Part shown: piece after piece, positions 26,192 through 59,344 of the stretch | Numbering within the stretch: the stretch's first letter is position 1 | How the letters are laid out: each line of letters opens with the position of its first letter | Origin: Mesobacillus persicus | GTDB taxonomy: Bacteria; Bacillota; Bacilli; Bacillales; Cytobacillaceae | DNA: 64,000 bases | Direction of reading: 5' to 3' | NCBI RefSeq assembly: GCF_900109925.1 | Contig: NZ_FOBW01000005.1 | Span: forward strand, 124,001-188,000 | The notes under the pieces: model-generated | What the model was told of the DNA's origin: nothing | The model's database searches: none | What the model saw: the letters and a program-made list of their open reading frames with translations, nothing else | Translations under genes and position numbers: made by a program

Positions 26192-26242
26192 GGGTCAGAC
26201 CCTCACTGAAGTAACGCTTTACTACACCGGGGGACTGACCCC
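26192..26242 (+). repeat. Hairpin repeat copy 1
   Basis: GGGTCAGACCCTC arm, core GTAACGCTTTACT with one change near its end (TACACC), right arm GGGGGACTGACCCC. Its right edge is the exact point where the hsdR fragment stops. Confidence 0.85.
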
Positions 26243-26726
26243 AAAATCATGACGGCGATAACGTTGAATCTGATTGAACGCCTCTTTAAAGTCTAAACCG
26301 CGACGTTTCAGTTCAATTTGATCGAGTGGTAGCCCGTTGATTAGGATCGTCACATCATAACGATTTATATAGGTGCCTTTGACTGTTGTCTGTGTTGTTA
26401 CTTGGAACAAATTCTTCCACCAGTCTTTTGTATTCATGAGTTCTACATATAACTGCGAACCATCCTCACGTTCAATCAATAACTTGTCGCGCAAGATCTT
26501 GGCAGAATCGTAAATACTTTTGCCTTCAATCAGGGTTAAAGTACGTTTGAATTCTGTATCAGTTAAAGGTTGTCCATCTAATTTGTGTTCATTAAATTTA
26601 TTAAGTTTGGTTTTTAAAGTTAGCAAGGAGTGCATCGTAATCTGTAATCTTTACGGGTATATAGCCTTTATTAACGAGATGTGTATGTAACTTTTTCTCG
26701 AGTTGCGCTTCGGATTGATAGCCCAT
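26243..26726 (-). pseudogene. hsdR remnant (Type I restriction R subunit, N-terminal nuclease part)
   Basis: Starts at ATG 26726 (AAAGGAG 9 bases upstream) with MGYQSEAQLEKKLH, typical of HsdR. The frame is lost at an AAAAA run near 26610 (one extra base gives a stop at 26601) and continues in another frame as NKFNEHKLDGQPLTDTEFKR through the HSDR_N nuclease core: YDVTILINGLPLDQIELKRRG holds the D...ExK catalytic residues. It ends after RYRRHDF at the repeat; motor domains, hsdM and hsdS are absent. So it is doubly broken, by a frameshift and a 3' truncation. It may be the remains of a Type I system replaced by the Type ISP enzyme next door. Confidence 0.85.
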
Positions 26727-26910
26727 CTATAAAATCTCCTTTAATACTTCTTCTCTTTATTATACTGAAAATAAGTGGAAAAGGGTTCATAAATGGGTGG
26801 AAAATTATTGGGAAGTGTTTTCGGAAAGGAAAGTACAACAGATTATGGTTTCGATTTGGAGAAATACGTGTCTCGATATACACGCAGTAAGTAAATACCT
26901 TTGAAAAAGC

Positions 26911-26959
26911 GTCAGACTCCCATCGAAGTAACGCTTTACTCCACCGGGGGACTGACCCC
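26911..26959 (+). repeat. Hairpin repeat copy 2
   Basis: Left arm partly decayed (GTCAGACTCCCATCG), core and right arm GGGGGACTGACCCC intact. A 5'-truncated replication gene begins within 8 bases of its right edge. Confidence 0.8.
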
Positions 26960-26966
26960 AAAATTC

Positions 26967-27637
26967 CGGTGCTTGAACAGCTTGGGTACTGGGTTGAACT
27001 GACCTATCGCGATGGAAGGGAGAATATTTATATTTATCTTTACCATCTTTCTGATGTTCCCTTTACAGACAGTGAAGTAGAGGAAATGATCTTAGAGCTT
27101 GAAAAGGCTGGCTTTAAAGTGAAACACATCAGTGAACCCTATCATCACTTACTCTTAGCTCAAAACGAAGGATATCTAGACCCCTTTTCTATTGTTGACT
27201 TTCAACAGTTGAAATTTAACAGTCCATTTTCAACAGTTGAAAATCGACAGCTATTAAATAAAGAGAAAAAAAGAAAGATAGAACAAATAAATAGAGATCA
27301 AACAAACATTGTGAATTCACAAGGTGACCACCCTCTCTCCCATTTAGATGAATTTGAAAAAGCCATAACGAACGTTTGTCATGAGCTCTATGTCGAATAT
27401 GCACCAAGTAGATGGAGCAAACGATCCTGGAACACACTTACCCATGCCTTTATAAAAGAAACGATCGAATCAAATCGGTATAAGAATATTCCTAGAAACC
27501 AGATAAGGGCCTATACAGAAGCAGCCATTCGTAAAATGGCCTTCTTCAAGGATAAAAAGAACCAAAAGATACACGTGGCAAGAACCATTCCCACCCGTCC
27601 AGTGCCATTTTATGACTGGTTAAATGCCGACTCTTAA
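26967..27637 (+). pseudogene. 5'-truncated replication-initiator-like gene
   Basis: About 222 residues survive, corresponding to residues 64-284 of the full copy at 49063; the first 63 residues, including most of the HTH, are missing and replaced by hairpin repeat 2. A 6-base insertion near 27028 adds two residues (IYIYLYHL against IHLYHL). The rest, with FNSPFSTVENRQLLNKEKKRK and the C-terminal VPFYDWLNADS, is nearly identical. No RBS precedes the remaining GTG at 26969, so expression is unlikely. Confidence 0.75.
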
Positions 27638-27732
27638 CGCCGACTGAACGTCCCGATTTTTCTTGTTTTAAAAGCAAGTCACCCACATATAAAATCAGGA
27701 AAATATCCATTATCGTTTCATAAAAGCAGATA

Positions 27733-27762
27733 AAACCTGAGTTCTAATAGGAACTCAGGTTT
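27733..27762. terminator. Terminator of the replication-like gene
   Basis: AAACCTGAGTTC, loop TAATAG, GAACTCAGGTTT, a perfect 12 bp stem. The same hairpin follows the other two copies of this gene (50016, 55714), so it belongs to the duplicated unit. Confidence 0.8.
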
Positions 27763-27824
27763 ATCCCTAAATTATTTAGATTGATGCTGACACTATCCTT
27801 CGGAAATAATACTGTGTGAAAACC

Positions 27825-28790
27825 TTACTCACCCACCATACCGTCATTATCATTATCGCGCATATAGGGGTATAACCAGTGATCACTCGTTATTGGCATA
27901 CTGAAACCTGCTGCTTTTGCTTCTTTAATTGTCACCTGTCCATTACCGTTTGTATCAACGCTAGAAATATCACCGTTTGTGTTTGAACTGGTTGAATTGG
28001 AAGGCTCACTGTCAGTTAAACCGAGTGATTCGTTAACTTTATCAGGGTTCACATTATCAAATGTATCAACGATTCTGTTGCCCATTAAAGTATAGGTATA
28101 CTGATAACTTGAAGGAATCTGCGTTTCTGTATTCGGATATGTGATAATTGCCTCAAAATTAGTAGCTCCACCTGCGTCACGGATTACTCTTTCCATATAT
28201 GCTTGATCCCCATGTCGGTTGAGCGTACTATCTTGTGGGGTAATATTATAAGCATTCGATACCCCTCCGAGAGAATCAGCAATTATATGTCCTTCATCTA
28301 AAACGTCACTTTCGACACCAGGAACCTTTGCCTCATCAGAATAGTATCTGCCAGACGATAATACAGGTTCGGTACTGTCATCTTGTAGAATGATTTCGTC
28401 AGCAATGACGCGTACTAGTTGCCCGTATTCATTAGTAAATGCCCAATATTCACGGTCCCCATATCCAATGTCAACGGCGACGTTAGGTTCACGATATCCA
28501 GACAAATCACCACCATCAACTACAATAAGTTCGTATCCTGAGAACAGTTCATTATTTTGTTGGGTTGGTGTTTCCTTCACAACCGGAACACTCGTCGTTT
28601 CCTCTACTACTCGTTCATCAACATCCATAGTGACAGTTTCTTCTTTTTCGTTATTATCATTTGTTTCAACTGTAGCTACTTCTTTTGGATCTGTTTCTAC
28701 ATTTGTAATGGATGAATCTTCTGCGTTGGTACAACCAGCCATAAAAATAATTGTTAATAGTAAAATTAAATAGTTCATTGTCTTTTTCAT
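27825..28790 (-). CDS. Secreted lipoprotein nuclease with EF-hand-like C-terminus
   Basis: 321 residues. A lipoprotein signal (MNYLILLLTIIFMAGC, lipobox FMAGC) anchors it outside the membrane. Residues 25-85 are an acidic Thr/Glu-rich linker. Residues about 95-250 form a DNA/RNA non-specific endonuclease-like domain: DEGHIIADSLGG matches the DRGH catalytic motif with E for R, and NITPQDSTLNRHGDQ holds the conserved Asn. The C-terminus carries DTNGNGQVTIKEA and DNDNDGMVGE, calcium-binding/excalibur-type loops, though the last lacks the usual Cys. TATAAT lies at 28813-28818 on the minus strand. Likely degrades extracellular DNA for nutrients or during competence. Confidence 0.82.
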   Translation of the reverse strand: MKKTMNYLILLLTIIFMAGCTNAEDSSITNVETDPKEVATVETNDNNEKEETVTMDVDERVVEETTSVPVVKETPTQQNNELFSGYELIVVDGGDLSGYREPNVAVDIGYGDREYWAFTNEYGQLVRVIADEIILQDDSTEPVLSSGRYYSDEAKVPGVESDVLDEGHIIADSLGGVSNAYNITPQDSTLNRHGDQAYMERVIRDAGGATNFEAIITYPNTETQIPSSYQYTYTLMGNRIVDTFDNVNPDKVNESLGLTDSEPSNSTSSNTNGDISSVDTNGNGQVTIKEAKAAGFSMPITSDHWLYPYMRDNDNDGMVGE

Positions 28791-28959
28791 TTTAGGACTC
28801 TCCTATAATAGTATTATAATGTTTATTCTAAAGATATCGGAATGTTTACATAGATTAACGTTGTTAACCTAGGTCTGATTAGCTTTATAGCATTAAAAAA
28901 AAAGTTCTCTACTTGCTGAGACTCTGAAACTAATAATAAATATATATTTAGGCATCTAT

Positions 28960-29346
28960 TCATGTTGGTACTCTTTCTTTTATAACTGATAAAATAAAAT
29001 GATATGCTTGGAATAAAGTTGAAAACTCCTCTTCACTTAAGAGAAAAGAATGTGCAATTTTATTTCTGAGTGGGTAAACATCGCGGAGTCTCATGAAGAA
29101 TTCAAGAGGTAGTTTATAAAATGCACTCTCATACGTTCGTATATATACACTTTCAAGTTCATGTAAGCATAAACTCTCAAAGTCTTTTCTGGGTCCTCGT
29201 CTTAACTCTAGTCTTGGGGCTACATGAAACCAATTTACACCATATTCCTCCATCATTTTTTGCCTAACGAAGATACGAAGAGAGTTCTCGAGAGTATAAA
29301 GCATTCCGTATGCTTCCTTCATATAATTTACCTCTGATACTAACAA
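28960..29346 (-). CDS. HEPN-domain protein (Swt1-like HEPN)
   Basis: 128 residues, all helical. The motif RNKIAHS near residue 93 fits the R-x4-H active site of HEPN ribonucleases, and LENSLRIFVRQKM with YGVNWF near the N-terminus resembles the Swt1-type HEPN group. TTG 29346 and ATG 29322 each have a good RBS. HEPN domains act as metal-independent RNases in toxin and defence systems; no antitoxin (MNT) gene is adjacent, so it would be a stand-alone or orphan protein. Function is inferred. Confidence 0.6.
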   Translation of the reverse strand: MLVSEVNYMKEAYGMLYTLENSLRIFVRQKMMEEYGVNWFHVAPRLELRRGPRKDFESLCLHELESVYIRTYESAFYKLPLEFFMRLRDVYPLRNKIAHSFLLSEEEFSTLFQAYHFILSVIKERVPT

Positions 29347-29488
29347 AACATCACCCCTTCTCTTATTACCGCACAGTCTTATAAAAAGCGGAATAAATTA
29401 TACCTTTATTATACTTTCAATAAATATAATAACAACATGATTACAACCAGTGAGGGGAAATGTACCATTCTTGACTAATTTAAAAAAT

Positions 29489-29538
29489 GGGGTCACCCCC
29501 ACTGAAGTTACGCTTTACTCCACCGGGAGACTGACCCT
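29489..29538 (+). repeat. Hairpin repeat copy 3
   Basis: Variant with GGGGTCACCCCC, core GTTACGCTTTACT and GGGAGACTGACCCT. It lies just after the stop codon of the ligase gene, as do the copies next to the two ligase fragments. Confidence 0.8.
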
Positions 29539-29549
29539 AAAATTCTAGT

Positions 29550-30380
29550 TTATTTCCATTCAACAAATGACGGAATTCGTAGCAACCCAGCTTTAGTTAG
29601 ATTCCTATACTTCACCCGGCATCTAACTGGCTCAATAAAAGTATATTTTTTATCCTCTGAAATAACCTTTTGACTTCTGTATAATTCTTTCCATGCATCT
29701 GGTGGCATGAACTCCATTATTCCAGCTGGTTTACCATCTAGGAAGGTCAGCAGCAGCCCAAATTCTCCTCTTCTAAACCCCGAAATAAGAACGTCCTCAA
29801 ATTGGTAATTAATCACCTTAAGCCACGCCTGACTACGTTGACCGACCTCATATCGAGAATCTTTACGCTTTAGGACTACCCCTTCTAAACCTTGTTGCTG
29901 GACCAAATCAAAGTAGGGAGAAGCGTGACCTTCTATATATTTCACTTTAGCTACTAGACCACTATCCTCTTTAATAATTTCCTCTAGCAGCTTCTTCCTT
30001 TCCATTAACGGCAATTTAGTAAGAGATTCACCTTTATATTGTATAACGTCGAAAGCAACATAACTTAAAGTTCCATTGTCTATCAATTTACGTTTTGACA
30101 TAAACCGGCTCATTATGGCTTCAAAGTCGGGTTTACCATCTTGATCTGTAACGATAATCTCGCCATCTAAAACCGTACCATCTGGAATATCGATTGTTAA
30201 AAGCTCTGGAAACTTGTCTGTAACCTCATTGTTATGACGGGTATATAGCTGCACCTTGTTATCAAACTTAGAAAGTAACAGCCTTATTCCATCTAGCTTG
30301 AGTTCTGTTATATACGAATCATCATCAAAAGGCTGTTCTGACCTTTGTAATAGCATTGGTGAAACAAACACATAAACCAC
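29550..30380 (-). CDS. ATP-dependent DNA ligase
   Basis: About 273-276 residues, a minimal ligase. Adenylation domain with the lysine motif ELKLDGIRL (K about 28), LDGEIIV (motif III), AFDVIQYKG, EGVVLKRKDSRYEVG (motif IV) and WLKVINYQF (motif V); residues about 195-276 form the OB fold. It seals nicks using ATP, unlike the NAD-dependent housekeeping LigA. Start is GTG 30380 or, better spaced from AAGAGG, GTG 30371. Two 3'-terminal fragments of close relatives occur at 47035 and 56376, so the gene belongs to a spreading or duplicated family. Confidence 0.88.
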   Translation of the reverse strand: MVYVFVSPMLLQRSEQPFDDDSYITELKLDGIRLLLSKFDNKVQLYTRHNNEVTDKFPELLTIDIPDGTVLDGEIIVTDQDGKPDFEAIMSRFMSKRKLIDNGTLSYVAFDVIQYKGESLTKLPLMERKKLLEEIIKEDSGLVAKVKYIEGHASPYFDLVQQQGLEGVVLKRKDSRYEVGQRSQAWLKVINYQFEDVLISGFRRGEFGLLLTFLDGKPAGIMEFMPPDAWKELYRSQKVISEDKKYTFIEPVRCRVKYRNLTKAGLLRIPSFVEWK

Positions 30381-30529
30381 CTCTTAATAATTATAAGATG
30401 GATTGAATGTAGTTTCATTGGTATCTAATTTACATATATGGAATTTCTCACAATGGACCCTATAACAATAAAAAGAGCATCTTATCATGGGTATTCACCT
30501 TGAGGTCACACATTAGCATGTGAGGACGC

Positions 30530-30877
30530 CTAATCTCCGACAGCTACCCCAATCACACTAGCGAATGCGACTCGCTCAAACTCACCAGGCTTTGTTTCTA
30601 TCCGTAGTTGATGTGTAATCTGGTCAATATAATACACCTTACCTGTTATAACCTCCGTGAATCCATCGCCCCAAATCGTTAACTTCACCGGCAAATTATA
30701 CTCCATCGCATATCCTATTTGCTGGTCAAATTCCTCCTTTTCATCTTCGTCGATGATCGGCTTTATTTGCCGTTGAGTATCTCGCCATAACTCATGCTGT
30801 GCCTTTACCTGTTCGGGCATAAAAAACGCCCCTTTCCATTTCATTTTCCCTCTATCACGTAATGCGATATCAATCAT
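30530..30877 (-). CDS. YolD-like protein
   Basis: About 112-115 residues with RDRGKMKW... AFFMPEQ near the N-terminus and a beta-rich C-terminus (GFTEVITGKVYYIDQITHQLRI), the signature of the YolD-like family. Such proteins usually sit beside a UvrX/DinB-type polymerase; none is present, so this is an orphan. The only ATG (30877) directly abuts AAAGGAG, which is too close; the in-frame ATC at 30868 has ideal spacing, so the real start is uncertain. Confidence 0.75.
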   Translation of the reverse strand: MIDIALRDRGKMKWKGAFFMPEQVKAQHELWRDTQRQIKPIIDEDEKEEFDQQIGYAMEYNLPVKLTIWGDGFTEVITGKVYYIDQITHQLRIETKPGEFERVAFASVIGVAVGD

Positions 30878-30945
30878 CTCCTTTGATATTATTATACAGG
30901 AACATACGTTCCCATGTATACAAAATTAAAAGGACCAGTCTAGGT

Positions 30946-30966
30946 TGCCGTGCCTGTCACAACCCG
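30946..30966. repeat. GGTGCC-family repeat, degenerate
   Basis: GCCGTGCCTGTCACAACCCG, followed by ATTAATCTTGTTTCAC. Matches the core of the elements at 33631 and 44764 but is decayed beyond it. Confidence 0.45.
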
Positions 30967-31051
30967 ATTAATCTTGTTTCACATAAATGTTCCACACAAC
31001 AATAAATTGTGGTATGTGCTCCACTTCTTAAGAAGTTTCTAGATAAAAAAT

Positions 31052-31102
31052 GGGTCAGACCCCCACTGAAGTAACGCTTTACTCCACCGGGGGACTGACC
31101 CC
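31052..31102 (+). repeat. Hairpin repeat copy 4
   Basis: Consensus copy: GGGTCAGACCCCC, AGTAACGCTTTACT, GGGGGACTGACCCC. Reading frame of the DUF4357 fragment begins at its right edge. Confidence 0.9.
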
Positions 31103-31108
31103 AAAATT

Positions 31109-31708
31109 TATCCGACCTCAAACAACTCTTTTGGTCCAACTGAAATAAGTTATCTTGAGAATCGTTTTTGCGCAATAGCCACGGATGCCAAACGATATCT
31201 TGTCAAGAATGGAAATGACCCTACCTCTGGGAACATCACGGAGGAAAAAGAAAGTGAACTTGAGGAGCTCATCGATTACGCCAAACTGGTTATGGGTACA
31301 CTGGGCCATAAGGTTTTTGAAAATTTGACTGAGGTAAAAACGCAAATCGAAAAACCAGAAACCTCATATAATGAAGATAAGTTGTTACTGTACTTGAAGC
31401 GAAAAAGCAGAAAAAGTGGTATCACCATTGAAGCTACGTGCAAACAAACCAACGAGGGATTCGTGGTGCTAAAAGGCAGCCACATTGAAACCATCGATTC
31501 TGAAAGCATACCCTCTGGTATCAAAGATATCCGTAAAAAATCACAAGTTGATGTTAATGGTATATTGCAAGAGGATGTTCTTTTCCGCAGTCCCTCATAT
31601 GCAGCTGCCTTTGTAGTTGGCGGTCATGCAAACGGATTAACTGAATGGAAAGCAGAAAATGGAAAGACATTAAAAGAAATAGAACATATTCACGAAAGCA
31701 CAGAGTAA
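31109..31708 (+). pseudogene. 5'-truncated GIY-YIG-type nuclease with DUF4357 tail
   Basis: An open frame runs from the hairpin repeat through SFGPTEISYLENRFCAIA and ITEEKESELEELIDYAKLVMG to a DUF4357 domain (SPSYAAAFVVGGHANGLTEW, near the C-terminus). In intact relatives a GIY-YIG nuclease domain precedes this; it is missing here and no start codon with an RBS exists near the junction. An internal ATG at 31292 could at most give a 138-residue tail. Followed by a strong terminator at 31777. Confidence 0.7.
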
Positions 31709-31776
31709 TTTTTACATATAAACAGCATTTCCTTTTGAGAGCAGACCCTAAAGAACTAAATTCAACACACGATTAA

Positions 31777-31824
31777 GGTGTGAAACACCATCTGGATAAT
31801 TAGATGATGTTTCACACCTTTTTA
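31777..31824 (+). terminator. Rho-independent terminator
   Basis: GGTGTGAAACACCATCT and AGATGATGTTTCACACC form a 17-base stem with minor mismatch and an 8-base loop, followed by TTTTTATT. It belongs to the truncated DUF4357 gene. The rest of the gap 31825-32116 contains only hairpin repeat copy 5. Confidence 0.8.
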
Positions 31825-31908
31825 TTCAAAACAAACTTACCTGCTCAATCTCACTAGCCCCTACATAACCACTTCTAACACTTCTCTATCTCTCTCGATG
31901 AGAAAAAA

Positions 31909-31955
31909 GGGGCCCACAGTGAAGTATAGCGTTAGCCCACCGGGGGACTGACCCC
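31909..31955 (+). repeat. Hairpin repeat copy 5 (most diverged)
   Basis: Left arm shortened (GGGGCCCACAG), core altered (GTATAGCGTTAGCC), right arm CGGGGGACTGACCCC intact. Still in the common orientation. Confidence 0.7.
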
Positions 31956-32116
31956 AAAATTAGGTACCATATTTTATTTACAACCTGAATTGGTTTAAGA
32001 AGACATACTTTATTAGTAATATCAGTATATTAGTAATTATTTTAAGAAATACGAAAAAAGGAAGTATGTGCTTACTTCCTTTCTTTTCTTATTGTAAAAA
32101 TATACATATCTTATAT

Positions 32117-32308
32117 TTATCTACTATTGTATCTCTTACCAGCAATATCTTCCCAATTAAGTGGGATTGCTCTTGAATAATGAGGATCATTAGGCGAAAG
32201 GGGGTCCTTTCTCAATTCAACATCAAGCCCTAAACTTTTACTTAGCTCCATAAACTTCTCGAGGGTTGTTTTACCACGCGATTCTTTAACTACAACAGTC
32301 TTCTCCAT
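32117..32308 (-). CDS. Small unknown protein
   Basis: 63 residues, charged, soluble, starting MEKTVVVKESRGKTTLEKFM. A strong RBS (AAGGAGG) precedes the ATG at 7 bases. It follows the membrane coiled-coil gene by 21 to 22 bases on the same strand, so the two form a pair. Not recognised; the size and order would fit a small regulatory or antitoxin-like partner, but nothing in the sequence proves this. Confidence 0.55.
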   Translation of the reverse strand: MEKTVVVKESRGKTTLEKFMELSKSLGLDVELRKDPLSPNDPHYSRAIPLNWEDIAGKRYNSR

Positions 32309-32329
32309 GATACAACCTCCTTACATAAC

Positions 32330-33748: not shown

Positions 33749-34059
33749 CTACAAAACCACCTCAAATCCCCCAACCTCCTTCACATACAAAAACTTAACT
33801 GTCAAAACAGATGCGTCATTAACAATATCGAGTTTTACAATGCTATTTCCATTACTCTCTTTATGGAGAGATTCATCCCGATTCAGGATCAGCATGATAT
33901 CGGCATTCTCTGCTATGCTAGCTAATTCATTGAGGTAAGAAATTCGTGACCGTTTATTTTCCTTTTGATGACCTCCACTTGAAAGCTGTGATAGAAGAAT
34001 AATCGGTACCTGGTATTGTTCTGCGATTTGCTTTAACTCCTTTGTGAAATGGGGAAAAA
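33749..34059 (-). pseudogene. C-terminal remnant of a DnaB-like helicase gene
   Basis: About 100 residues in one open frame: ELKQIAEQYQVPIILLSQL, RISYLNELASIAENADIML and ILNRDE match the end of the DnaB RecA domain (the glutamine finger and Rxx region). The frame begins at hairpin repeat copy 6 with no start codon or RBS, so everything upstream of about residue 330 of the parent is gone. It is not a copy of the dnaB gene at 6221, from which it differs strongly. Confidence 0.7.
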
Positions 34060-34110
34060 GGGTCAGACCCCCACTGAAGTAACGCTTTACTCCACCGGGG
34101 GACTGACCCC
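34060..34110 (+). repeat. Hairpin repeat copy 6
   Basis: Consensus copy, abutting the dnaB remnant on its left. To the right, 34111-34354 has a minus-strand tail GKPGKTTNPFWIDQVLNRL-stop around 34165-34225 that looks like a further coding scrap. Confidence 0.9.
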
Positions 34111-43414: not shown

Positions 43415-43642
43415 AAACTACACCTCAATAATAGAGCACGCTGAATGATTCATTATCCGCCTTCTCAATTGAAATAAAAGCAGTCGGAATAACGGGAATC
43501 TATTATAGGTTCTCGTTACCATCTGCAACTCTTTAACGTTATCTAAGCAAGACGCAGCACTCCACATGTTTTGAAGGTTTGACGTGCGTAGTGTAGTAAT
43601 TAGAGATAAAGATAGTTGGATCCTGAAGGCCAATGGGTCAAT

Positions 43643-43694
43643 GGGTCAGACACCCCACCCAAGTAACGCTTTACTCCACCGGGGGACTGACCCC
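43643..43694 (+). repeat. Hairpin repeat copy 7
   Basis: Left arm GGGTCAGACACCCCACCC (one insertion), core and right arm consensus. The IS3 orfA remnant starts 5 bases to its right; 43415-43642 to its left is non-coding and follows the TRAP operon. Confidence 0.85.
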
Positions 43695-44813: not shown

Positions 44814-44846
44814 TTAATATAGCATTTAGTCGAAAAATGGAAAAAT

Positions 44847-44897
44847 GGGTCAGATCCCCACTGAAGTAACGCTTTACTCCACCAGGGGACTGACCCC
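44847..44897 (+). repeat. Hairpin repeat copy 8
   Basis: GGGTCAGATCCCC left arm, CCACCAGGGGACTGACCCC right side; two substitutions that keep the stem partly paired. Only 34 bases separate it from the GGTGCC repeat. Confidence 0.88.
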
Positions 44898-47034: not shown

Positions 47035-47130
47035 CTAATTCCATTCTACAAATGACGGTATCCTTAAGAATCCAGCTTTAGTTAGGTGCCTATATTTCAC
47101 TCTTAAACTTAATCGGCTCAATTGGCCAGT
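47035..47130 (-). pseudogene. 3' fragment of an ATP-dependent DNA ligase gene
   Basis: RVKYRHLTKAGFLRIPSFVE, WN-stop matches the last 20 residues of the ligase at 29550 (RVKYRNLTKAGLLRIPSFVE). Beyond about 30 residues the frame slips (a small indel) and is cut by hairpin repeat 9. Confidence 0.8.
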
Positions 47131-47180
47131 GGCTCAGACCCCCACTGAAGTAACGCTTTACTCCACCGGGGGACTGACCC
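47131..47180 (+). repeat. Hairpin repeat copy 9
   Basis: GGCTCAGACCCCC, consensus core, GGGGGACTGACCC. A ligase tail abuts on the left and a DndB-like fragment on the right, so both flanks are broken genes. Confidence 0.88.
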
Positions 47181-47183
47181 TAA

Positions 47184-51860: not shown

Positions 51861-51929
51861 TTAAGGAGTATTCCAAATCTCCTTTAAGAAATGGTGAGTG
51901 TACTCGATATATGAAAGCCATTATTCCAC

Positions 51930-52015
51930 TAAAGGTAAGCGTTTGAAGTTATCTCCGGCTTTTCCCCTGCTCCACACGGAACGTGCCAGTTTCCTAGCAT
52001 TCCGCGTTCCATCTA
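51930..52015 (-). ncRNA. 3' end of a group II intron (domain V-like hairpin)
   Basis: On the minus strand CGGAATGCTAGGAAACTGG leads into CACGTTCCG: a hairpin with a GAAA tetraloop and a bulge as in group II domain V, followed by an AGGGGAAAAGCC stretch towards the intron end. It lies just downstream of the intron-protein fragment, as expected. The 5' half of the intron is absent, so it cannot splice. Confidence 0.55.
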
Positions 52016-52064
52016 ACGATGGTTTTGTTAATTATAAGTTTCAAGTTACTCTTGTTGTTTTGGG

Positions 52065-52753
52065 TTATTTGATTTGTTCTAATTCACATGCTTCCCGATA
52101 TTTATTAATTTTCTGTAGCACCGGTTCTGTGATACCCAATTTTTTCATGAGTAGGTTCATCTTAATTATATCTGTCATATGGATAAGTTTATGTACATCT
52201 TTATGAAGGATGCGTAGGTTATGAAACTTGTCGCTTCCACCGAGTTGTATAGGAATAAAGTGATGGCAGTGCAAGTCATGTGCTTGAAGAAATAATCCTG
52301 TGATTTCACATTTTCCATTTTTCATACTATATCGGCTTATTCGATTATCCATATATTCGACACTGCGTGTCGGGATTTTCGACTCCATTAAAAGAGCTAT
52401 TTCTTGCTTGATATTCTTGTGCAAGTTCTTATGAATCTGCGCTCGACCTTTCACCGTGAATGGTGTTAGACTTTGTGTAAAACTAATCACGTTTTTTGTC
52501 TGAACATTCGCGATAGGGAAAAGGTGAATACCTGCAATTTTAAAAGTCTTGAATCCTAAACTATAAAATTTCTTGTAGGTTGGTGGTGGATTCGTTGGAT
52601 GTGCGTATTTCCCGATAGGCTTAAGACGATTGTACATCATTGCACGTATTTCATAGGCAAGACGTGAGAACGCTAAATTGACATGTGTTGCTCTATTAAA
52701 GTAATTATGTAGACCTAATACAAAACTATTAAAGCGTAAAGCATTTGAAAAAA
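52065..52753 (-). pseudogene. C-terminal fragment of a group II intron reverse transcriptase/maturase
   Basis: From hairpin repeat 10 an open frame reads NALRFNSFVLGLHNYFNRAT, then the X/maturase region and a C-terminal HNH endonuclease: CEITG, DLHCHHFIPIQLGGSDKFHN, VHKLIH. About 225 of some 600 residues remain; the reverse-transcriptase core is gone. Truncation falls exactly at the repeat. Confidence 0.85.
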
Positions 52754-52805
52754 GGGGTCAGACCCCCACTGAAGTAACGCTTTCCTCCACCGTGGGACTG
52801 ACCCC
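52754..52805 (+). repeat. Hairpin repeat copy 10
   Basis: Variant CTTTCCTCCACCGTGGGACTGACCCC (split: CTTTCCTCCACC, GTGGGACTGACCCC), shared only with copy 11. Broken genes lie on both sides. Confidence 0.9.
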
Positions 52806-52810: not shown

Positions 52811-52882
52811 TTTCAATCGAATTTAGTTCTAATTGGATTGATTACAGTAATCATAATGATTGTCGTAAATAGAAAAAAGTAA
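52811..52882 (+). pseudogene. C-terminal remnant of a small holin-like type I toxin
   Basis: Frame reads SNLVLIGLITVIIMIVVNRK, K-stop: the transmembrane helix and basic end of small Bacillus type I toxins (TxpA/Bsr-like). The start is lost at hairpin repeat 10. Downstream layout (CCGCCC..., a hairpin, and a terminator at 52982) matches the usual toxin/antisense-RNA arrangement. Confidence 0.55.
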
Positions 52883-53109
52883 CCGCCCCCAGCCCGACCA
52901 AAGGATAAAGGGGTGTTACCTTTTTCAAAACACCTTTTAGATTTTCTAGGTCAGCCGCTCTTCATGCGGCATGTAGTTGTGTTGACTGAGCATTCCAGTG
53001 CTCGGTCAATTTTTATTTTATATACTTTCTAAATTAATTATACATCAATATATGGTCCAAATAAAAATAATTTAATAATAGGGGTTTGAGTCAAGTTTTT
53101 ATGAAAAAT
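52883..53109. other. Type I toxin 3' region with terminator; otherwise empty
   Basis: Holds AAAGGGGTGTT...AAACACCTTTT (about 52904-52935), which could end an antisense antitoxin RNA on the minus strand, and TTGACTGAGCA-TTCCAG-TGCTCGGTCAA with TTTTT (52982-53014), the terminator of the toxin mRNA. No other gene seen up to copy 11. Confidence 0.5.
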
Positions 53110-53156
53110 GCCCCCCCCACTGAAGTAACGCTTTCCTCCACCGTGGGACTGACCCC
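53110..53156 (+). repeat. Hairpin repeat copy 11
   Basis: Same core variant as copy 10 but the left arm is reduced to CCCCCCCC, so the outer stem cannot form. Confidence 0.85.
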
Positions 53157-53189: not shown

Positions 53190-54131
53190 CTAATAGTTCT
53201 CAGTGATCCCCCCTAGTGAAGAGGCTTTAATGGTCGGATCCTTCATAATTTCTACGATTTCATCCTTCGTCCCATAAACGATTACGCCTAGTATTTCTAC
53301 ATCGTCTATACCAATATTTTTCATAGTATTGTAGGTTTTTTGGTGTTCACTGGAAGCACTCGTATTCAGCAACTCTAGGAACTCTTCATATTCATATGCC
53401 CAGTCTGACGCTGAAGGATAAGAATTTCTTATGGAAAAGCCTAATGCTTCATTCTCCCTAATAAACGTTGCAGACCAGTCGTATTCCTTCGCCTCTTGTT
53501 TGAACGTGTTTAATTGGGTATTGCTATAGGTATTTAGCCAAAACCAAGTCATTTCTGGTAGCTGCAGGGTAGGAAGCTCACTTGGCTTATATGGCTGATC
53601 AAAGGATAGAGCTACCTCATATATTTTTTCCCCATCCATACTTTCAATCAATTCTTCATCATTTTTATATTTTTTGTAATCAACCTCTGGATGAAAAAAC
53701 AGCATTTCCCTCCAACCATTTTCTTTATAAGATAATTGCCAATCCTCTCCCGTGACTCCGATGCTGCTACCTGCACCTCTTGAAATCAATACAGATGGAT
53801 TCAAACCGAATTGATATTGTTTTTGTTCAATAACAATCGATTTAATTTTCATGTCCTTTGAAATCTTATAATGGCTCATACCTCCTAGAATACCCCTTGA
53901 ATCCACTGTTTCACTGATGTATCCGTTCGGTGTGCTAAGTCGTACATAAGCATCCCATTGCTTAAATGCCTTTTGGCTAAAATAAGCTGAAATTGCGAAA
54001 TTGGCTATGGTTAGTAGAACGAACACGATGATAGAAACGAAAACAATCGTTATGAACGACTTCCTTTTACCTTTGTTTATAGCTTTTTTTATCTTCTTCT
54101 CATCAAAAATATCCTCTGAGTATTCATCCAT
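53190..54131 (-). CDS. Anti-sigma factor with Sigma_reg_N/Sigma_reg_C domains (YhdL-like)
   Basis: 313 residues: a cytoplasmic N-terminus (1-25), one transmembrane helix (FITIVFVSIIVFVLLTIANF, about 26-46) and a large extracellular part. Sigma_reg_N starts right after the membrane (YFSQKAFKQWDAYVRLSTPN) and Sigma_reg_C is in the second half (ELPTLQLPEMTWFWLNTYS, then IGIDDVEILGVIVYGTKDEI). The gene overlaps the sigma factor gene by 8 bases. It would hold the sigma factor at the membrane until an envelope signal arrives. Confidence 0.85.
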   Translation of the reverse strand: MDEYSEDIFDEKKIKKAINKGKRKSFITIVFVSIIVFVLLTIANFAISAYFSQKAFKQWDAYVRLSTPNGYISETVDSRGILGGMSHYKISKDMKIKSIVIEQKQYQFGLNPSVLISRGAGSSIGVTGEDWQLSYKENGWREMLFFHPEVDYKKYKNDEELIESMDGEKIYEVALSFDQPYKPSELPTLQLPEMTWFWLNTYSNTQLNTFKQEAKEYDWSATFIRENEALGFSIRNSYPSASDWAYEYEEFLELLNTSASSEHQKTYNTMKNIGIDDVEILGVIVYGTKDEIVEIMKDPTIKASSLGGITENY

Positions 54132-54630
54132 GTAGCTCCCTCCAATTCTTTTGAAATTCTTTTCTAGCCCGAAATAAATACGTCCTAATCGTTTCTTCCT
54201 TCATTCCTAGTAATAATGAAATCTCCTTATAACTAAGTTCAAATTCATATTTTAATACCAGTAACTGTTTAAAGACTTCTTGAATACCTTCTAGAGTAAG
54301 TGCGATTTCATGATTCATCTCGATATTCAAAACGCTAGATTCGGTGTTTTGGTCATTCGCAAAGTTGTTCCAGAAGCGATCATCATCAATTAAAATCACT
54401 TGTTCTTTTCCTTTTTTCTTTAACAATTTTTTAAATTCATTTAAAGAAATGGTAAAAATATATGAAAGAGCTTTATCCGAAGGAACACCACTACTATAGG
54501 CCATATACTTCATATAGCTTTCTTGAACAATATCTTCTGCATCTTCATGGCTACAACCGTTCTTTTTCAAATAAAAATAAATCATTTTTGCTTGTTTTTT
54601 GTATATTTCCAACAGTAGCTGAGAATCCAT
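54124..54630 (-). CDS. ECF-type RNA polymerase sigma factor
   Basis: 168 residues from ATG 54630 (AAGGGGGG just upstream; an upstream in-frame ATG at 54714 lacks an RBS). Region 2: YFYLKKNGCSHEDAEDIVQE; region 4: LELSYKEISLLLGM-like (FELSYKEISLLLGMKEETIR). Upstream, TGTAAAC (about 54684-54690, minus strand) may be part of an autoregulated -35, but the -10 is unclear. Controls an unknown regulon in response to the membrane anti-sigma factor encoded next to it. Confidence 0.9.
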   Translation of the reverse strand: MDSQLLLEIYKKQAKMIYFYLKKNGCSHEDAEDIVQESYMKYMAYSSGVPSDKALSYIFTISLNEFKKLLKKKGKEQVILIDDDRFWNNFANDQNTESSVLNIEMNHEIALTLEGIQEVFKQLLVLKYEFELSYKEISLLLGMKEETIRTYLFRARKEFQKNWRELHG

Positions 54631-54736
54631 AGCTCCCCCCTTTCTAACGTCCCTCACTAATAAAGAGTCATTTCCCTTCAAAAAGTTTACAGCAATACTG
54701 AAAAAATTTTTCATAAAAAAATAAAAAATAAAAAAA

Positions 54737-54788
54737 GGGGTCAGACCTCCACTGAAGTAACGCTATACTCCACCGGGGGTCTGCCCCC
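54737..54788 (+). repeat. Hairpin repeat copy 12
   Basis: GGGGTCAGACCTCC, core CGCTATACT (one change), GGGGGTCTGCCCCC; the A-to-T and other change make the right arm pair better with the left than in the consensus. Confidence 0.85.
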
Positions 54789-54808
54789 AAACCTTTGCGT
54801 TTATTAAA

Positions 54809-55285
54809 TCAACTGACAAACTCTTGTGTGATTCTTTTTCCAGCCTCTAATCGTTCAATAAAGTGTCCGCCTGTATACTCTTTTATTACGCTCTTCCAAA
54901 ATGATTGTGCTGGTTCGTTTTTTAAAACCTGAAAAACTTCCCAGTTCCCCTTGTGTAAACGGAATATATCTTTTGCAACTGATCTACCCAGTCCAGTCCT
55001 CCTATATTTTTTCATAATAAAGAATTCAGCAATTGAAAAGTATGATTTAGTTTCTGTTTTTATCCATTTTACTAAGACAAAACCTGCGTAATTTCCGCTA
55101 AATCTAACTAGATATGGAAAATGATGATCTTCTGCCCAATAGTCATTTAAGGGATACTCACCAAATCTCCCATTTTCTTCAACGTGTGCGTCAATAAACT
55201 CTGAAAAGTCATAAATATAGTATTGCATTAAGTTTGTAAGTGTTTCCGAATGATCCAAACTCGCTTTAATTATCTCATAGTTCAT
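54809..55285 (-). CDS. GNAT-family acetyltransferase
   Basis: 158 residues from ATG 55285 (GAAAGGT 7 bases upstream). GNAT core: GFVLVKWIK (beta 4), FSIAEFFIMKKYRRTGLGRSVAKDIF with the acetyl-CoA loop RRTGLGRS, and a C-terminal NEPAQSFWKSVI. Substrate unknown. Monocistronic between repeat 12 and a palindrome. Confidence 0.85.
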   Translation of the reverse strand: MNYEIIKASLDHSETLTNLMQYYIYDFSEFIDAHVEENGRFGEYPLNDYWAEDHHFPYLVRFSGNYAGFVLVKWIKTETKSYFSIAEFFIMKKYRRTGLGRSVAKDIFRLHKGNWEVFQVLKNEPAQSFWKSVIKEYTGGHFIERLEAGKRITQEFVS

Positions 55286-55383
55286 TGTTAGTACCTTTCT
55301 GTTCCAATATAATTTACTGGTTTCTCTATATTCATTCAACCTACCAATTGAATTATCCTCTACAAGTTACACAAAACCTTTTA

Positions 55384-55408
55384 GTGATAAGTCACTGTGA
55401 CTTGTCAC
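55384..55408. repeat. 25-base palindrome, copy 2
   Basis: GTGATAAGTCAC, T, GTGACTTGTCAC; one change from the copy at 45049. The replication-gene fragment begins at its right edge. Confidence 0.75.
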
Positions 55409-55409
55409 A

Positions 55410-55619
55410 TGGAACACACTCACCCATGCCTTTATAAAAGAAACGATTGAAACAAATCGGTATAAGAATATTCCTAGAAACCAGATAAGGGCCTATACAG
55501 AAGCAGCCATTCGTAAAATGGCCTTCTTCAACGATAAAAAGAACCAAAAGATACCCGTGGCACAAACAATTCCCACCCGTCCAGTGCCATTTTATGACTG
55601 GTTAAATGCTCACTCTTAA
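55410..55619 (+). pseudogene. 3' fragment of the replication-initiator-like gene
   Basis: Codes for WNTLTHAFIKETIETNRYKN to VPFYDWLNAHS-stop, about 69 residues, over 90% identical by eye to the ends of the copies at 26967 and 49063. The left boundary is the 25-base palindrome. The gene's terminator (55714) is retained. Confidence 0.85.
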
Positions 55620-55713
55620 CGCTGCCTGGACAATTCGACTTTTCTTGTTTTAAAAGCAGGTCTTACATTTAAAATTGGGAAAAGATCCATCATCGTCTTT
55701 TAAAAACAGATAA

Positions 55714-55743
55714 AACCTGAGTTCTAATAGGAACTCAGGTTTC
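55714..55743. terminator. Terminator of the replication-gene fragment
   Basis: AAACCTGAGTTC-TAATAG-GAACTCAGGTTT, third copy of this hairpin. Confidence 0.8.
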
Positions 55744-55777
55744 TCCTTATATTCTTAAGATTTATGCTTACATAATC

Positions 55778-56257
55778 TTACAGAAATCCACATTGAAGGT
55801 CTTCTTCTTTAATTGAATCGCTGATGAGTTGATAAAGCTCCAATAATCCCTCATGTTCAGGTTCAAAGCCAATTCTAGTTACATGATCTTCAATGGCCTC
55901 AATCATTTTGTATCCTACTTTTCCTGACAGACGAGGTTCTTCTTTCCTATTACTTTTCATATCATCAGCTAAATATGTGATGATCTTAAGGTGAGAATCT
56001 CCTATTGGGTTGATGTAAAACAAGAAGTAGGGCAATTTTTTAACTAGTTCCGTGAAATACAACCTCCTCTTCGTCCTCCTCTGGTTTGAATCTGATTCAT
56101 CTTCCTCAATAGTATGTAATTCAATAGAAGCGAACCGATTATTCAAGCTTTGATTTGCCTCAATTTGATTGATGGAATCTAAAATAAGGTTGATGTTAGT
56201 AGAATGTATATCCTCTTTGGTTAGGTCAATGCTTAATAAGGTGTTTTTGTCTTTCAA
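55778..56257 (-). CDS. Unknown soluble protein
   Basis: 159 residues from TTG 56257 with AAAGGAG 10 bases before it. Residues 60-68 are basic (QRRTKRRLY), then a hydrophobic strand-rich part (LPYFLFYINPIGDSHLKIITYL) and an acidic helical end. No motif recognised. It replaces the nuclease gene as the convergent neighbour of this third replication-gene copy. Confidence 0.5.
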   Translation of the reverse strand: MKDKNTLLSIDLTKEDIHSTNINLILDSINQIEANQSLNNRFASIELHTIEEDESDSNQRRTKRRLYFTELVKKLPYFLFYINPIGDSHLKIITYLADDMKSNRKEEPRLSGKVGYKMIEAIEDHVTRIGFEPEHEGLLELYQLISDSIKEEDLQCGFL

Positions 56258-56375
56258 GCATGGGACGCTCCTTTAACAATCATAATAAGGAGTAGTATTC
56301 CTGTATTATGTTTTTAATTATTCATGGAAAATACTTAGCCTATCAAATACATGTATTATCCTCTCTAGCCAATGT

Positions 56376-56436
56376 TTATTTCCATTCAACAAATGACGGG
56401 ATCCGGAGTAACCCAGCTTTAGTTAGATGCCTATAC
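56376..56436 (-). pseudogene. 3' fragment of an ATP-dependent DNA ligase gene (second)
   Basis: RHLTKAGLLRIPSFVEWK-stop, identical in protein to the end of the ligase at 29550 apart from one residue. The fragment is cut at hairpin repeat 13. The gap 56258-56375 is AT-rich without features. Confidence 0.85.
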
Positions 56437-56481
56437 GTCCCCCATTAAAGTAACGCTTTGATTCACCGGGGGACTGACCCC
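56437..56481 (+). repeat. Hairpin repeat copy 13
   Basis: Left arm missing (starts GTCCCCCATTAAAG), core CGCTTTGATTCACC, right arm GGGGGACTGACCCC. The ligase tail meets it where the left arm should be. Confidence 0.8.
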
Positions 56482-56563
56482 AACACTTCTATTATATTTA
56501 AGAGAATAATGGTAGATAATAACGCATGAATATAAATTGGAAAAAAACGCGGAGGAGATCCTT

Positions 56564-57100
56564 ATCAAAATAATAAAATTTACGGTATTATTCATTGTGC
56601 TATCCTTTTCTCTTTCACATGTAGTTAAAGCGAACTATACTAGCGAGGAATATCAGAAGTCATTTTATGATATTGGTTACAAAGAAGTTCATGAAGCATT
56701 GGTAGAAAGTAGAGCGCATTTCAAACATGAGATTGAATTGCCAGTCCAAATTCCGCCAATTGAATTCACTCACAGCTTCGGAAGGCTTAATGACCTCGAG
56801 GGTGACGTAAATGATGGCTTCGAAATTGTATACCATCATAAAGATAAACCAAAAAATCACTATACTATTGACGTCAAGCCCATTAAGTACGGTCTTGAGC
56901 TAAGGAAAGAGTCTATTGATCAAACCTTCAAACTAAAAGACGGAAGTGAAGCCTTATATAGTACGGATTTTGCAGAAGGATTTAACCTATTGATCTTCGA
57001 AAAAAAGGGTTGGCAGTATATTCTAAGCATTAATAAAGCTGTTTCAGACAAAGTAAAACCAGAAATTTTAGTTGAGATAGCAAACTCAGTAGGTCCATAA
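56564..57100 (+). CDS. Exported protein of unknown function with non-standard start
   Basis: About 179 residues. A textbook signal peptide (KIIKFTVLFIVLSFSLSHVV, then KA-N) would begin at codon ATC 56564, which lies 6-7 bases after GGAGGAG; a TTG at 56537 is in frame but has no RBS and would put 9 odd residues in front. So either ATC is the start, or the start codon was mutated. The mature part is mixed alpha/beta (ELPVQIPPIEFTHSFGRL, then YILSINKAVSDKVKPEILVE). Family not recognised. Confidence 0.55.
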   Translation: MKIIKFTVLFIVLSFSLSHVVKANYTSEEYQKSFYDIGYKEVHEALVESRAHFKHEIELPVQIPPIEFTHSFGRLNDLEGDVNDGFEIVYHHKDKPKNHYTIDVKPIKYGLELRKESIDQTFKLKDGSEALYSTDFAEGFNLLIFEKKGWQYILSINKAVSDKVKPEILVEIANSVGP

Positions 57101-57110
57101 ATAGAAAAAT

Positions 57111-57162
57111 GGGGTCAGTCCCCCACTGAAGTAACGCTTTACTCCACCGGGGGACTGACACC
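57111..57162 (+). repeat. Hairpin repeat copy 14
   Basis: GGGGTCAGTCCCCC: here the left arm has T so the 14 bp stem pairs fully with GGGGGACTGAC-CC except for one change (GACACC). Confidence 0.88.
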
Positions 57163-57177
57163 AAAATGCCTAAGTGA

Positions 57178-57432
57178 TTAGCTTTCCATTTCAAGAATAG
57201 CCTCAATTTCATCTTGAACCTCTTTATTTACAGAAAGAGCACGTTTTTTCCTCAATTCTAGATCCACTTCTTGATCGATAAAATGATTGGTATGTTTGTC
57301 AAAACAATCGTAACAGATGGCGTAAAAATCTTTTTGTTCCTTTTTTAAAAATTCAAATTCCCATGTTTCAAGTTCCAAATAACTTACTTTGTCATTCGTT
57401 TCTTTTTCACATAGTTCGCACATTGTTTTCAT
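57178..57432 (-). CDS. Small Cys-rich protein
   Basis: 84 residues with CELC (5-8) and CYDC (about 40-43), a likely zinc site, followed by a charged helix. ATG with AAAGGATT upstream. It lies 22 bases downstream of the desaturase gene on the same strand. Function unknown. Confidence 0.55.
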   Translation of the reverse strand: MKTMCELCEKETNDKVSYLELETWEFEFLKKEQKDFYAICYDCFDKHTNHFIDQEVDLELRKKRALSVNKEVQDEIEAILEMES

Positions 57433-57454
57433 GATTCATAATCCTTTCATCTGT

Positions 57455-58351
57455 CTACTTTTTATTTTTTTGAAGTTGGCGATCTTTAATTCTTTTTAAA
57501 CGGCCATGATAGTTTAATATATTTGCTTGTGATTGCTTTGCCTCGTCGGTGGTAGGTTGTAAGTTCGCAATATCCCAATAAGTCACAACCACATCTAATA
57601 CTTGGTCAAAATATTGTAGCGGACCATAATTGGCATTGATGGCAATGGTTTTCATTCTCTCGGTAAAGTCAGGCATAACAGCACCTGGCATGGAGAAATT
57701 AATAATTACGTCCTCAAAGAAAACAATGAAATTCGGATCAAGTTCAAGATGCGCTTTCACGGTATCACGATAGAATGCATAATGAAGCGCTTCGTCTTTC
57801 GCTAAACGCCGAAGCAATGTCGATAGATCTTTGTCGTGTGGACCAGCTATTTTGGCTACATTATTATAGAAAACTAGTGTCGCTAACTCTTGCAATGACG
57901 TATAGGCCATAGTTGCGAGTGGGTTCGTGAAATCTGGAAACCACCCGTTTTCAACGACTCTCCTTCTTAATTCATGCAATCTTGTAGGATTTACGTTCCG
58001 GGTAACTAATAAATACGTTTCTAGTAAGTTCGAATGTTGATCTTCTTCTGCTGTCCAAGTGCGCACGAAATCATTGATTACTTCCATTGAATTTTTGAAA
58101 GTATAATCCAAATGTGAAGTATACCAAGGTAAATTCACCTCGGTAAGCAAGGCTGTTTCAACTGCAACAATGACACCTTCTGGTAGGGTTACTTGACTTT
58201 CCTCCCATGGAACACGTTTAAAAGACATCGCCTTATCCCATGGAATAAATTCATGATAACTCCAATCAATATTTGCCGATCGTTCCTTATGTAATTGATA
58301 CAATTCTTTAATGCGCGGTTCTAACCGCCTATCCAAATCTGAATTTAACAT
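57455..58351 (-). CDS. Acyl-ACP desaturase (ferritin-like di-iron)
   Basis: 298 residues. Di-iron ligands in the type 2 fatty acid desaturase pattern: ETALLTEVNLPWY, WTAEEDQHSNLLETYL (E-x2-H) and LAKDEALHYAFY (second E-x2-H). It introduces a double bond into acyl-ACP using oxygen and ferredoxin-type electrons, adjusting membrane fluidity. ATG with AAGGAG 8 bases upstream. Bacilli usually rely on the membrane Des enzyme, so this is an additional route. Confidence 0.9.
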   Translation of the reverse strand: MLNSDLDRRLEPRIKELYQLHKERSANIDWSYHEFIPWDKAMSFKRVPWEESQVTLPEGVIVAVETALLTEVNLPWYTSHLDYTFKNSMEVINDFVRTWTAEEDQHSNLLETYLLVTRNVNPTRLHELRRRVVENGWFPDFTNPLATMAYTSLQELATLVFYNNVAKIAGPHDKDLSTLLRRLAKDEALHYAFYRDTVKAHLELDPNFIVFFEDVIINFSMPGAVMPDFTERMKTIAINANYGPLQYFDQVLDVVVTYWDIANLQPTTDEAKQSQANILNYHGRLKRIKDRQLQKNKK

Positions 58352-58465
58352 GTTTTTAGCTCCTTAAGTTTTTTAGTTAGAATGTTTAATAATAATTATA
58401 AACTAAAGGATAAACAAATGACAAAGGAACGCTACCGGTTTGTTTGATTAAGCAGTGCCAAAAAT

Positions 58466-58517
58466 GGGGTCAGACCCCCACTGAAGTAACGCTTTACTCC
58501 ACCGGGGGACTGACCCC
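58466..58517 (+). repeat. Hairpin repeat copy 15
   Basis: Full consensus: GGGGTCAGACCCCC, AGTAACGCTTTACT, GGGGGACTGACCCC. Best reference copy. Confidence 0.92.
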
Positions 58518-58539
58518 AAAATCCAAGTTTAATCACTCA

Positions 58540-59085
58540 TTATTTCCAAGCGGACATATATTTCTTTTGATATTTGCTATCTTCTTCGTTCTCAATCAAA
58601 TCCATTGCTATTTCCTTAATTTGTTCATCTTTTACTTCATCATATAATTTTTTTAAACCCACAATCATATCGTATCGAATCAAGGTATAATTTTTTTCGT
58701 CCATTCCATTTTTAAACCTATCAATCATATGATCGAGAAGCATTTCTCTTTGTTCTTGTCCTGCTAACCCTACTTTCCAAATTGATTGTATAGTATGGCG
58801 AGCAGTTACAAATTTCGAATCTTTTGTTACTTCCCATAACGCTGGGAAATCATGAAGCATCCGTTTTTCAGGGTCACTGATTGCTAAAGCAGATAGAAAC
58901 TGTCCTGCTCTAGCTCTACGGTGATTATCGCGATCAGAAAGCCACCCTATCAATTGATCCCATACTTCATAAGACCAGTCTACTTTTTCTTTTGTAGCAT
59001 GCATTATATTCTGAAATGCTTCATATTGTAAATTTTTGTCTTTCCCTTCAAGGTTTGTAAAATAAGACTTAATTGTATCATCCAT
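58540..59085 (-). CDS. HEAT-repeat-like protein
   Basis: 181 residues from ATG 59085 (AGAGGTG upstream). All-helical with repeated paired helices (VDWSYEVWDQLIGWLSDRDN, RRARAGQFLSALA, RHTIQSIWKVG), as in HEAT/armadillo scaffolds related to AlkD-type folds. No catalytic residue pattern recognised. A protein- or DNA-binding scaffold is inferred. Confidence 0.65.
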   Translation of the reverse strand: MDDTIKSYFTNLEGKDKNLQYEAFQNIMHATKEKVDWSYEVWDQLIGWLSDRDNHRRARAGQFLSALAISDPEKRMLHDFPALWEVTKDSKFVTARHTIQSIWKVGLAGQEQREMLLDHMIDRFKNGMDEKNYTLIRYDMIVGLKKLYDEVKDEQIKEIAMDLIENEEDSKYQKKYMSAWK

Positions 59086-59293
59086 TGAAACACCTCTAAC
59101 ATGGTTTATTATTATCAATTTTATCCTATTTATGGTCTCTTTCAAATTTTTCTAACCTGCTGCGTTTGTTGAACAAGTTAGAATAAAAATTGAAGCCACT
59201 TATGTTCTGGTTCGTGTAATTCCAAGGCATTTCAAAGCCATTGTTTGTTCTCATTACCAAGGTAATCCTTTATAGTCATAAAGGATTAAAAAA

Positions 59294-59344
59294 GGGACAG
59301 ACCCCCACTGAAGTAATGCTTTACTCCACCGGGAGACTGACCCC
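59294..59344 (+). repeat. Hairpin repeat copy 16 (rightmost)
   Basis: GGGACAGACCCCC, AGTAATGCTTTACT (one change), GGGAGACTGACCCC. No further copy occurs to the right. Confidence 0.85.

Follow-up and report, generated by a model that had tools for sequence, protein, structure and literature searches.

A REP-doublet repeat aligned with GC skew in Mesobacillus persicus and its probable spread by a RAYT transposase

A stretch of 64,000 nucleotides from Mesobacillus persicus (contig NZ_FOBW01000005.1, positions 124,001 to 188,000, referred to here as the window) carries sixteen copies of a hairpin repeat of roughly 52 bases, all in one orientation. The architecture of the element is that of a doublet of repetitive extragenic palindromic (REP) units, the type known as REPIN, and its orientation follows GC skew and not the direction of the neighbouring genes, so that transcription does not explain the orientation bias. 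We consider it probable that the repeat was spread by a REP-associated tyrosine transposase (RAYT) of one group, B, on single-stranded DNA of the lagging-strand template, that this enzyme has been lost here, and that the copies are probably immobile remnants. The fork-aligned orientation is the distinctive feature of this REPIN/RAYT variant in relatives of Bacillus.

An earlier reading made from the sequence alone (the sequence-only reading) had listed sixteen plus-strand copies, and these were all recovered with a 39-base consensus that gave 16 plus-strand and 0 minus-strand matches at up to six substitutions; the same consensus, allowed up to eight substitutions on both strands of 30 first-order Markov sequences of window length, gave no match. 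The listed starts stand overall, several being off by 1-3 bases (see Table 1). With the 14-base arm and at most two mismatches there were 28 matches in the window, both arms counted, versus a mean of 0.12 in dinucleotide shuffles. The consensus, derived by eye, is GAAAAAT-GGGGTCAGACCCCC-ACTGAAGTAACGCTTTACTCCACCG-GGGGACTGACCCC-AAAATT, in which two GGGGnCnGnCCCC palindromes, the REP units, face each other in inverted arrangement, usually 39 bp apart. Each arm is itself a palindrome, the linker of about 25 bases between them (motif TAACGCnTTA) is itself a small hairpin (TAACGCTTTA), and the A/T-rich flanks of the element are conserved. All 16 window copies have a recognisable right arm, while three (31909, 53110 and 56437) have a left arm that is missing or severely damaged. 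According to our own reading of the alignments, 13 of the 16 have GTGG at the left-arm base on the minus strand, and two (copies 10 and 11) have it before the right arm.

Both strands of the two copies that were folded form one long hairpin enclosing an inner hairpin, and the outer stem with its one mismatch (A.A) and the inner stem of the sequence-only reading were both obtained. The hairpin is stronger on the minus strand owing to G.U or G.T pairs that replace A.C mismatches there, the consensus copy giving -43.1 versus -33.3 kcal/mol as RNA and -22.3 versus -18.5 kcal/mol as DNA; as RNA the minus strand is more stable by 9.8 and 12.6 kcal/mol in the two copies. Rfam at gathering scores returned two matches in the window, one to a group II intron and one to a purine riboswitch, and both lie outside the repeats.

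Matches to the consensus in a genome-wide BLAST search (E<=1) lie on only three contigs, C21, to which the window belongs, C19 and C23. At E<=1e-3 there are 41 copies, 32 of them full, 6 left-truncated, 2 right-truncated and 1 truncated on both sides; that most truncated copies are without the left arm fits single REP units and could be directional. In a genome of 4.64 Mb, 27 copies pointing the same way are found within 74 kb of C21, with smaller groups on C19 and C23. The claim that none occurs before 26 kb or after 59.4 kb is correct inside the window at up to six substitutions but fails for the contig, which has further copies at C21:193-224 kb (69-100 kb in window coordinates). The GC content of the 74-kb cluster is 0.36-0.38, versus 0.39-0.42 over most other C21 sequence. 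Copies are extragenic, with none of the 39 that could be oriented inside an open reading frame (ORF) of at least 100 aa and two overlapping an ORF end, and neighbouring copies are only weakly alike (rho 0.25, permutation p 0.014, 19 copies).

A copy was oriented when its strand scores, from a model built on 19 C21 copies, differed by at least 5 bits; nhmmer matches with E>1e-3 were dropped and strand-ambiguous copies (2 in this genome, 7 in the congener G006) were left out. GC skew in the 50 kb around each copy served as a proxy for the direction of replication. When orientation is set against replichore, as the sequence-only reading had suggested, it reverses with GC skew: 37 of the 39 orientable copies agree, 30 on the plus strand where skew is negative and 7 on the minus strand where it is positive, which leaves 2 exceptions (Fisher p 4e-6). 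Equal numbers on both strands of one arm, which that reading had named as evidence against a strand-biased element, were not seen, C21 having 27 copies one way and 1 the other. Agreement with GC skew was also found for 25 of 29 orientable copies in the stretches fetched from G006 (p 0.003). On C21 as a whole G-excess and most coding fall on the minus strand, which would therefore be the lagging-strand template, and the more stable fold would therefore form on the strand exposed at the fork.

The same minus-strand hairpin might, of course, act in RNA, as an intrinsic terminator or a stabiliser of mRNA ends that is held under selection and stops fork-directed transcription from the minus strand. 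Like intrinsic terminators the element has, on that strand, a GC hairpin followed by a T-run (ATTTTT), with G.U pairs gained and the extra RNA stability given above, and 6 of the 27 C21 copies lie 11-29 bp past a minus-strand ORF. Yet the upstream gene does not set the orientation. The ORFs of at least 100 aa in C21:150-225 kb number 33 on the minus and 30 on the plus strand, yet the copies there, 27 of 27, share a single direction, and while the upstream ORF is co-directional in 26 of the 39 oriented copies on the three contigs, 12 of the 13 with an opposite upstream ORF follow the presumed fork. Nor do the gene contexts of the copies (tandem 21, divergent 9, convergent 9) depart from the background of C21:150-225 kb (32, 15 and 15), which they resemble. 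Unlike terminators the element has a conserved linker, it is dispersed, its conservation exceeds what termination needs, and its units flank RAYT genes (see below). We judge an RNA-level function to be an unlikely origin of the pattern. Decidedly unlikely, in our estimation, is unbiased insertion followed by loss of the copies in the other orientation, through hairpins on one template that are deleted or harm the fork. The nearly complete bias would agree with such loss, and hairpins on the lagging-strand template are deletion substrates, but the surviving orientation has its stronger fold on the presumed lagging-strand template; had the stronger hairpin been deleted, the opposite orientation should remain.

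Copies of the repeat were found by BLAST in 14 of 61 genomes, this one included, and a degenerate pattern run over genome contigs matched at least 117 stretches. Among the matches listed are Bacillus, Neobacillus, Peribacillus, Lentibacillus, Alkalihalobacterium, Salirhabdus and similar genera, all of which we take to lie in or near the Bacillaceae. In relatives the arms recur as doublets, in head-to-tail arrays or singly, mostly with a spacing of 39 bp and with TAAnGCnTTA as the linker motif; one doublet adjoining a RAYT has a 31-bp pitch, and in genome G035 (L023 1345-1552) a head-to-tail array holds six family units at a 39-bp period. A fixed ancient RNA gene at the same sites in relatives, the second outcome named by the sequence-only reading as contrary to its proposal, was not observed where sites were compared by eye: at the 3' end of dus (250 bases) the element is present here and in 0 of 6 congeners, so that at this one site it is lineage-specific. 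Movement of the dus gene itself, which in G004, G005 and G006 is within a few kb of genes that M. persicus has on C21 and which here is on C23, was considered and set aside as inseparable from ordinary rearrangement. No repeat in window 43.0-62.5 kb is crossed by any of the homology blocks listed for six congeners; the region is a mosaic and this has little weight either way.

The single orientation and the accessory genes between copies bring to mind an integron-like array in which the hairpins would serve for recombination and would separate mobile cassettes, and there are indeed congener homology blocks of which either end lies 15-43 bases from a repeat (window 57177-58423; L014 14855-15975). 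The intervals are not single-gene units, however, containing none to eight ORFs and including a 9.5-kb catabolic block, and a search for the right-arm motif was negative in 27 of 30 congener loci with homologues. Orientation tracks skew on C23 and C19 too, and both copies and blocks are simply located at gene ends. An attC array was accordingly rejected, there being no site per single-gene cassette and the flanking repeats usually not being found in relatives, and we regard an integron-like origin as very improbable.

Three groups of RAYT could be told apart, namely B, A and the longer r2. Eleven of the 12 rows assigned to group B form one branch (support 91/92), with the twelfth (L153) outside, and 28 group-B loci in all were assigned by BLAST identity, partly beyond the tree. 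Repeat units, scanned with one substitution allowed, were located within 700 bp of 24 of these 28 loci versus 78 of 2000 random places taken from the C19 and C23:1-200 kb sequences of M. persicus; L350 and L351, which are without units, were taken as group A, and counting them would give 24 of 30. For group A the figure is 2 of 9 loci, or 0 of 7 without the side branch of L159 and L166. A TnpA_REP gene flanked by two copies, an arrangement that the sequence-only reading had proposed to look for, exists in Alkalihalobacterium elongatum, whose RAYT (L181:1687-2208) has a doublet on either side, at 1621-1672 and 2376-2419, but not in M. persicus, which has no group-B RAYT. Units also adjoin RAYTs of Neobacillus muris, Lentibacillus and Salirhabdus, the four RAYTs of these genera and of A. 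elongatum having been found via the repeat itself. Searching the 117 listed pattern loci (914 kb) by tblastn with three RAYT queries gave only these 4 RAYTs, each with its best match in group B. A miniature inverted-repeat transposable element of some other transposase, unconnected with RAYT, would share the short non-coding sequence, inverted arms and conserved A/T-rich flanks but is hardly credible, as units and single arms adjoin group-B RAYTs far above background and an element moved by double-strand cut and paste would not be expected to show a strict replication bias.

That the window has no RAYT gene, as reported previously, is borne out by a genome-wide Y1_Tnp (PF01797) search, in which C12 and C26 scored above cut-off and besides them there was only a weak fragment on C19. 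The C12 gene is a group-A RAYT beside what we take to be comM, and that on C26 (L017 1420-2490) is an r2 RAYT of 261 aa flanked by a different repeat, GGGGACGGTTCTTTTGCTTCC, and its inverted form. Neither is accompanied by the units described here, and both were rejected as cognate enzymes on the grounds of their surroundings. The copies look orphaned because two other RAYTs are present and none is of group B; no group-B remnant was found at E<=1 on C21, C19, C23 or the fetched C12 stretch. The C19 fragment belongs to an ORF (L018 1474-2250) with a weak partial Y1_Tnp start, below cut-off, and gives the impression of a TnpA-TnpB pair with the middle missing; the rest of this ORF presumably represents TnpB.

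In the explanation that we favour, a group-B RAYT, a single-strand transposase of the Y1/HUH type, would spread the REPIN by acting on the element when passage of the replication fork leaves it single-stranded on the lagging-strand template. Insertion of this kind would fix each copy in one orientation relative to fork movement, and subsequent loss of the gene from the M. persicus genome would leave the copies behind as immobile remnants. The sequence-only reading had proposed a REP-like element moved by a RAYT, and in kind this is supported by the group-B units, by the orientation with GC skew and by neither contrary outcome having been seen; RAYT as the mover, single-stranded lagging-strand DNA as its substrate and the former presence of the enzyme are three steps that we infer.

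Several observations weigh against spread by a group-B RAYT at the fork. Four orientable G006 copies on negative skew point the opposite way and four of the agreeing ones are on contig C14, where the sign of the skew is mixed between 10-kb bins (21 of 25 agree without C14); the direction of the fork itself rests on GC skew and not on a located origin. The total of 41 copies is below the number usual for REPs, more than 100 per genome in the abstract of PMC2817692, and only one arm clearly shows the canonical GT[AG]G foot. An empty site with alignable flanks was not found, the congener flanks at dus being too diverged for a junction. As for the enzyme, a group-B RAYT was not found in this genome by PF01797 profile or RAYT matches, both genome-wide, the branch support of 91/92 is under the starred level of the tool, and units near 5 of 10 r2 RAYT loci indicate that the motif is not exclusive to group B, some of the unit hits near RAYTs being looser sister motifs such as GGGGTCAGGCAC or GGTGnCnGnCACC. 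Finally, a match of at least 190 bits to the G006 RAYT was obtained in 8 of 14 repeat-positive genomes versus 17 of 47 others, which is a loose link. In one repeat-positive genome the RAYT match is in two adjacent pieces (G036:C1:2287425-2287948).

A stronger form of the favoured explanation would have RAYT insert REPINs only into the lagging-strand template and preferentially near its own gene, a dense one-way cluster then being its footprint and the C21 cluster marking the place of a lost RAYT. We offer this as a tentative possibility. Clustering was evaluated after dropping copies within 1.5 kb of the RAYT and by comparison with a randomly placed RAYT. In Lentibacillus sp. CBA3610, 19 of 37 doublets are within 100 kb of the RAYT, unlike a uniform scatter, with P of 0.004, 0.06 and 0.23 when copies are merged within 200 bp, 2 kb and 20 kb, respectively. 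Among the matches listed, G035 (20 loci after merging; P 0.06-0.08) and contig C2 of G010 (P 0.12-0.15) lean the same way, non-significantly. Against local spread, G010 (among the matches listed) and G034 each have about 100 units over several contigs, and the G006 doublets are mostly on contigs other than that of its group-B RAYT. Clustering around the RAYT gene in relatives is, therefore, only suggestive.

The segment between repeats 10 and 11 (window 52811-53065) shares 82-90% identity with segments that G003 and G006 have close to RAYT genes. Its kin read as type I toxin-antitoxin pairs, and here the toxin frame is cut beside the repeat. Group-B RAYTs are within about 3 kb of such putative toxin-antitoxin segments in G006 and G003, and in G004 and G005 the segments are far from the RAYT. 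That the truncated segment marks a former RAYT place is speculation.

The closest known systems are the REPINs, or REP doublets, and RAYTs (TnpA_REP) of Pseudomonas fluorescens and E. coli, which in the accessible portions of PMC3116915 and PMC6006769 are pairs of inverted extragenic palindromes forming one hairpin, and which also include single units, tandem arrays and units flanking a Y1/HUH transposase gene. The present family differs in being found in Bacillus-related genera, in its GGGGnCnGnCCCC palindrome and TAACGCnTTA linker, and in that the GT[AG]G foot (canonical for REPs in the same portion of PMC6006769) is clear on one arm; it differs further in that its copies, about 40 in number, cluster in a few low-GC regions and are individually aligned with the fork, and in that no cognate RAYT was found in this genome. 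The IS200/IS605 elements (IS608, ISDra2) are comparable in their Y1 transposase, in recognising hairpins and in favouring the lagging-strand template (PMC6006769). Those elements carry their own transposase and subterminal hairpins, in contrast to a geneless repeat with a single hairpin. With the GTAG- and CGTC-tagged REP families the repeat shares intergenic palindromes, dimers and association with RAYT, but it has no clear GTAG tag, and the portion of PMC3733652 at hand names no such family in Bacillus, which appears there for bcr1 only.

Concerning orientation, the REP tandem arrays of SBW25 change from forward near 2 Mb to reverse near 4 Mb (PMC3116915), which may be the same effect and so a possible precedent. 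The accessible parts of PMC3733652 and PMC2817692 do not mention a comparable bias, and in that of PMC3110155 Bordetella repeats are not co-oriented with the fork. No publication on this repeat family was found among the titles and abstract openings of open-access literature on RAYT, REP, Bacillus and replichore, and the motif letters gave 0 matches. The spread of REPs is called poorly understood in an excerpt of PMC8266576. An asymmetric element that can be oriented one copy at a time, and that follows the fork against gene direction, supplies natural evidence for REPIN spread via lagging-strand single-stranded DNA, as for IS608, and relatives with candidate cognate enzymes make such spread directly testable.

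Table 1. Window coordinates, strand and condition of the sixteen repeat copies
Copy	Position	Strand	Description
1	26191..26242	+	full doublet; contains the stop of the HsdR N-terminal fragment ORF (26222-26635, minus)
2	26908..26959	+	doublet, left arm damaged
3	29489..29538	+	doublet, left arm 2 bases short
4	31051..31102	+	full doublet
5	31908..31955	+	left arm and core damaged; right arm intact
6	34059..34110	+	full doublet
7	43642..43694	+	full doublet
8	44846..44897	+	full doublet
9	47130..47181	+	full doublet
10	52754..52805	+	full doublet; abuts putative truncated type I toxin gene
11	53110..53156	+	left arm lost; shares variants with copy 10
12	54737..54788	+	full doublet
13	56437..56481	+	left arm lost
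14	57111..57162	+	full doublet
15	58466..58517	+	full doublet, identical to the consensus used
16	59293..59344	+	full doublet

Among the other features of the window, a long Type ISP restriction-modification gene (21145-25890) adjoins the HsdR N-terminal fragment. A group II intron remnant occupies 51929-52698 on the minus strand, where Rfam matches 51929-52009 and an HNH ORF spans 52065-52640, and its homology to a G006 locus ends at 52698, 56 bases before copy 10. The purine riboswitch (61680-61781) lies upstream of an ORF pair at 61841-63987.

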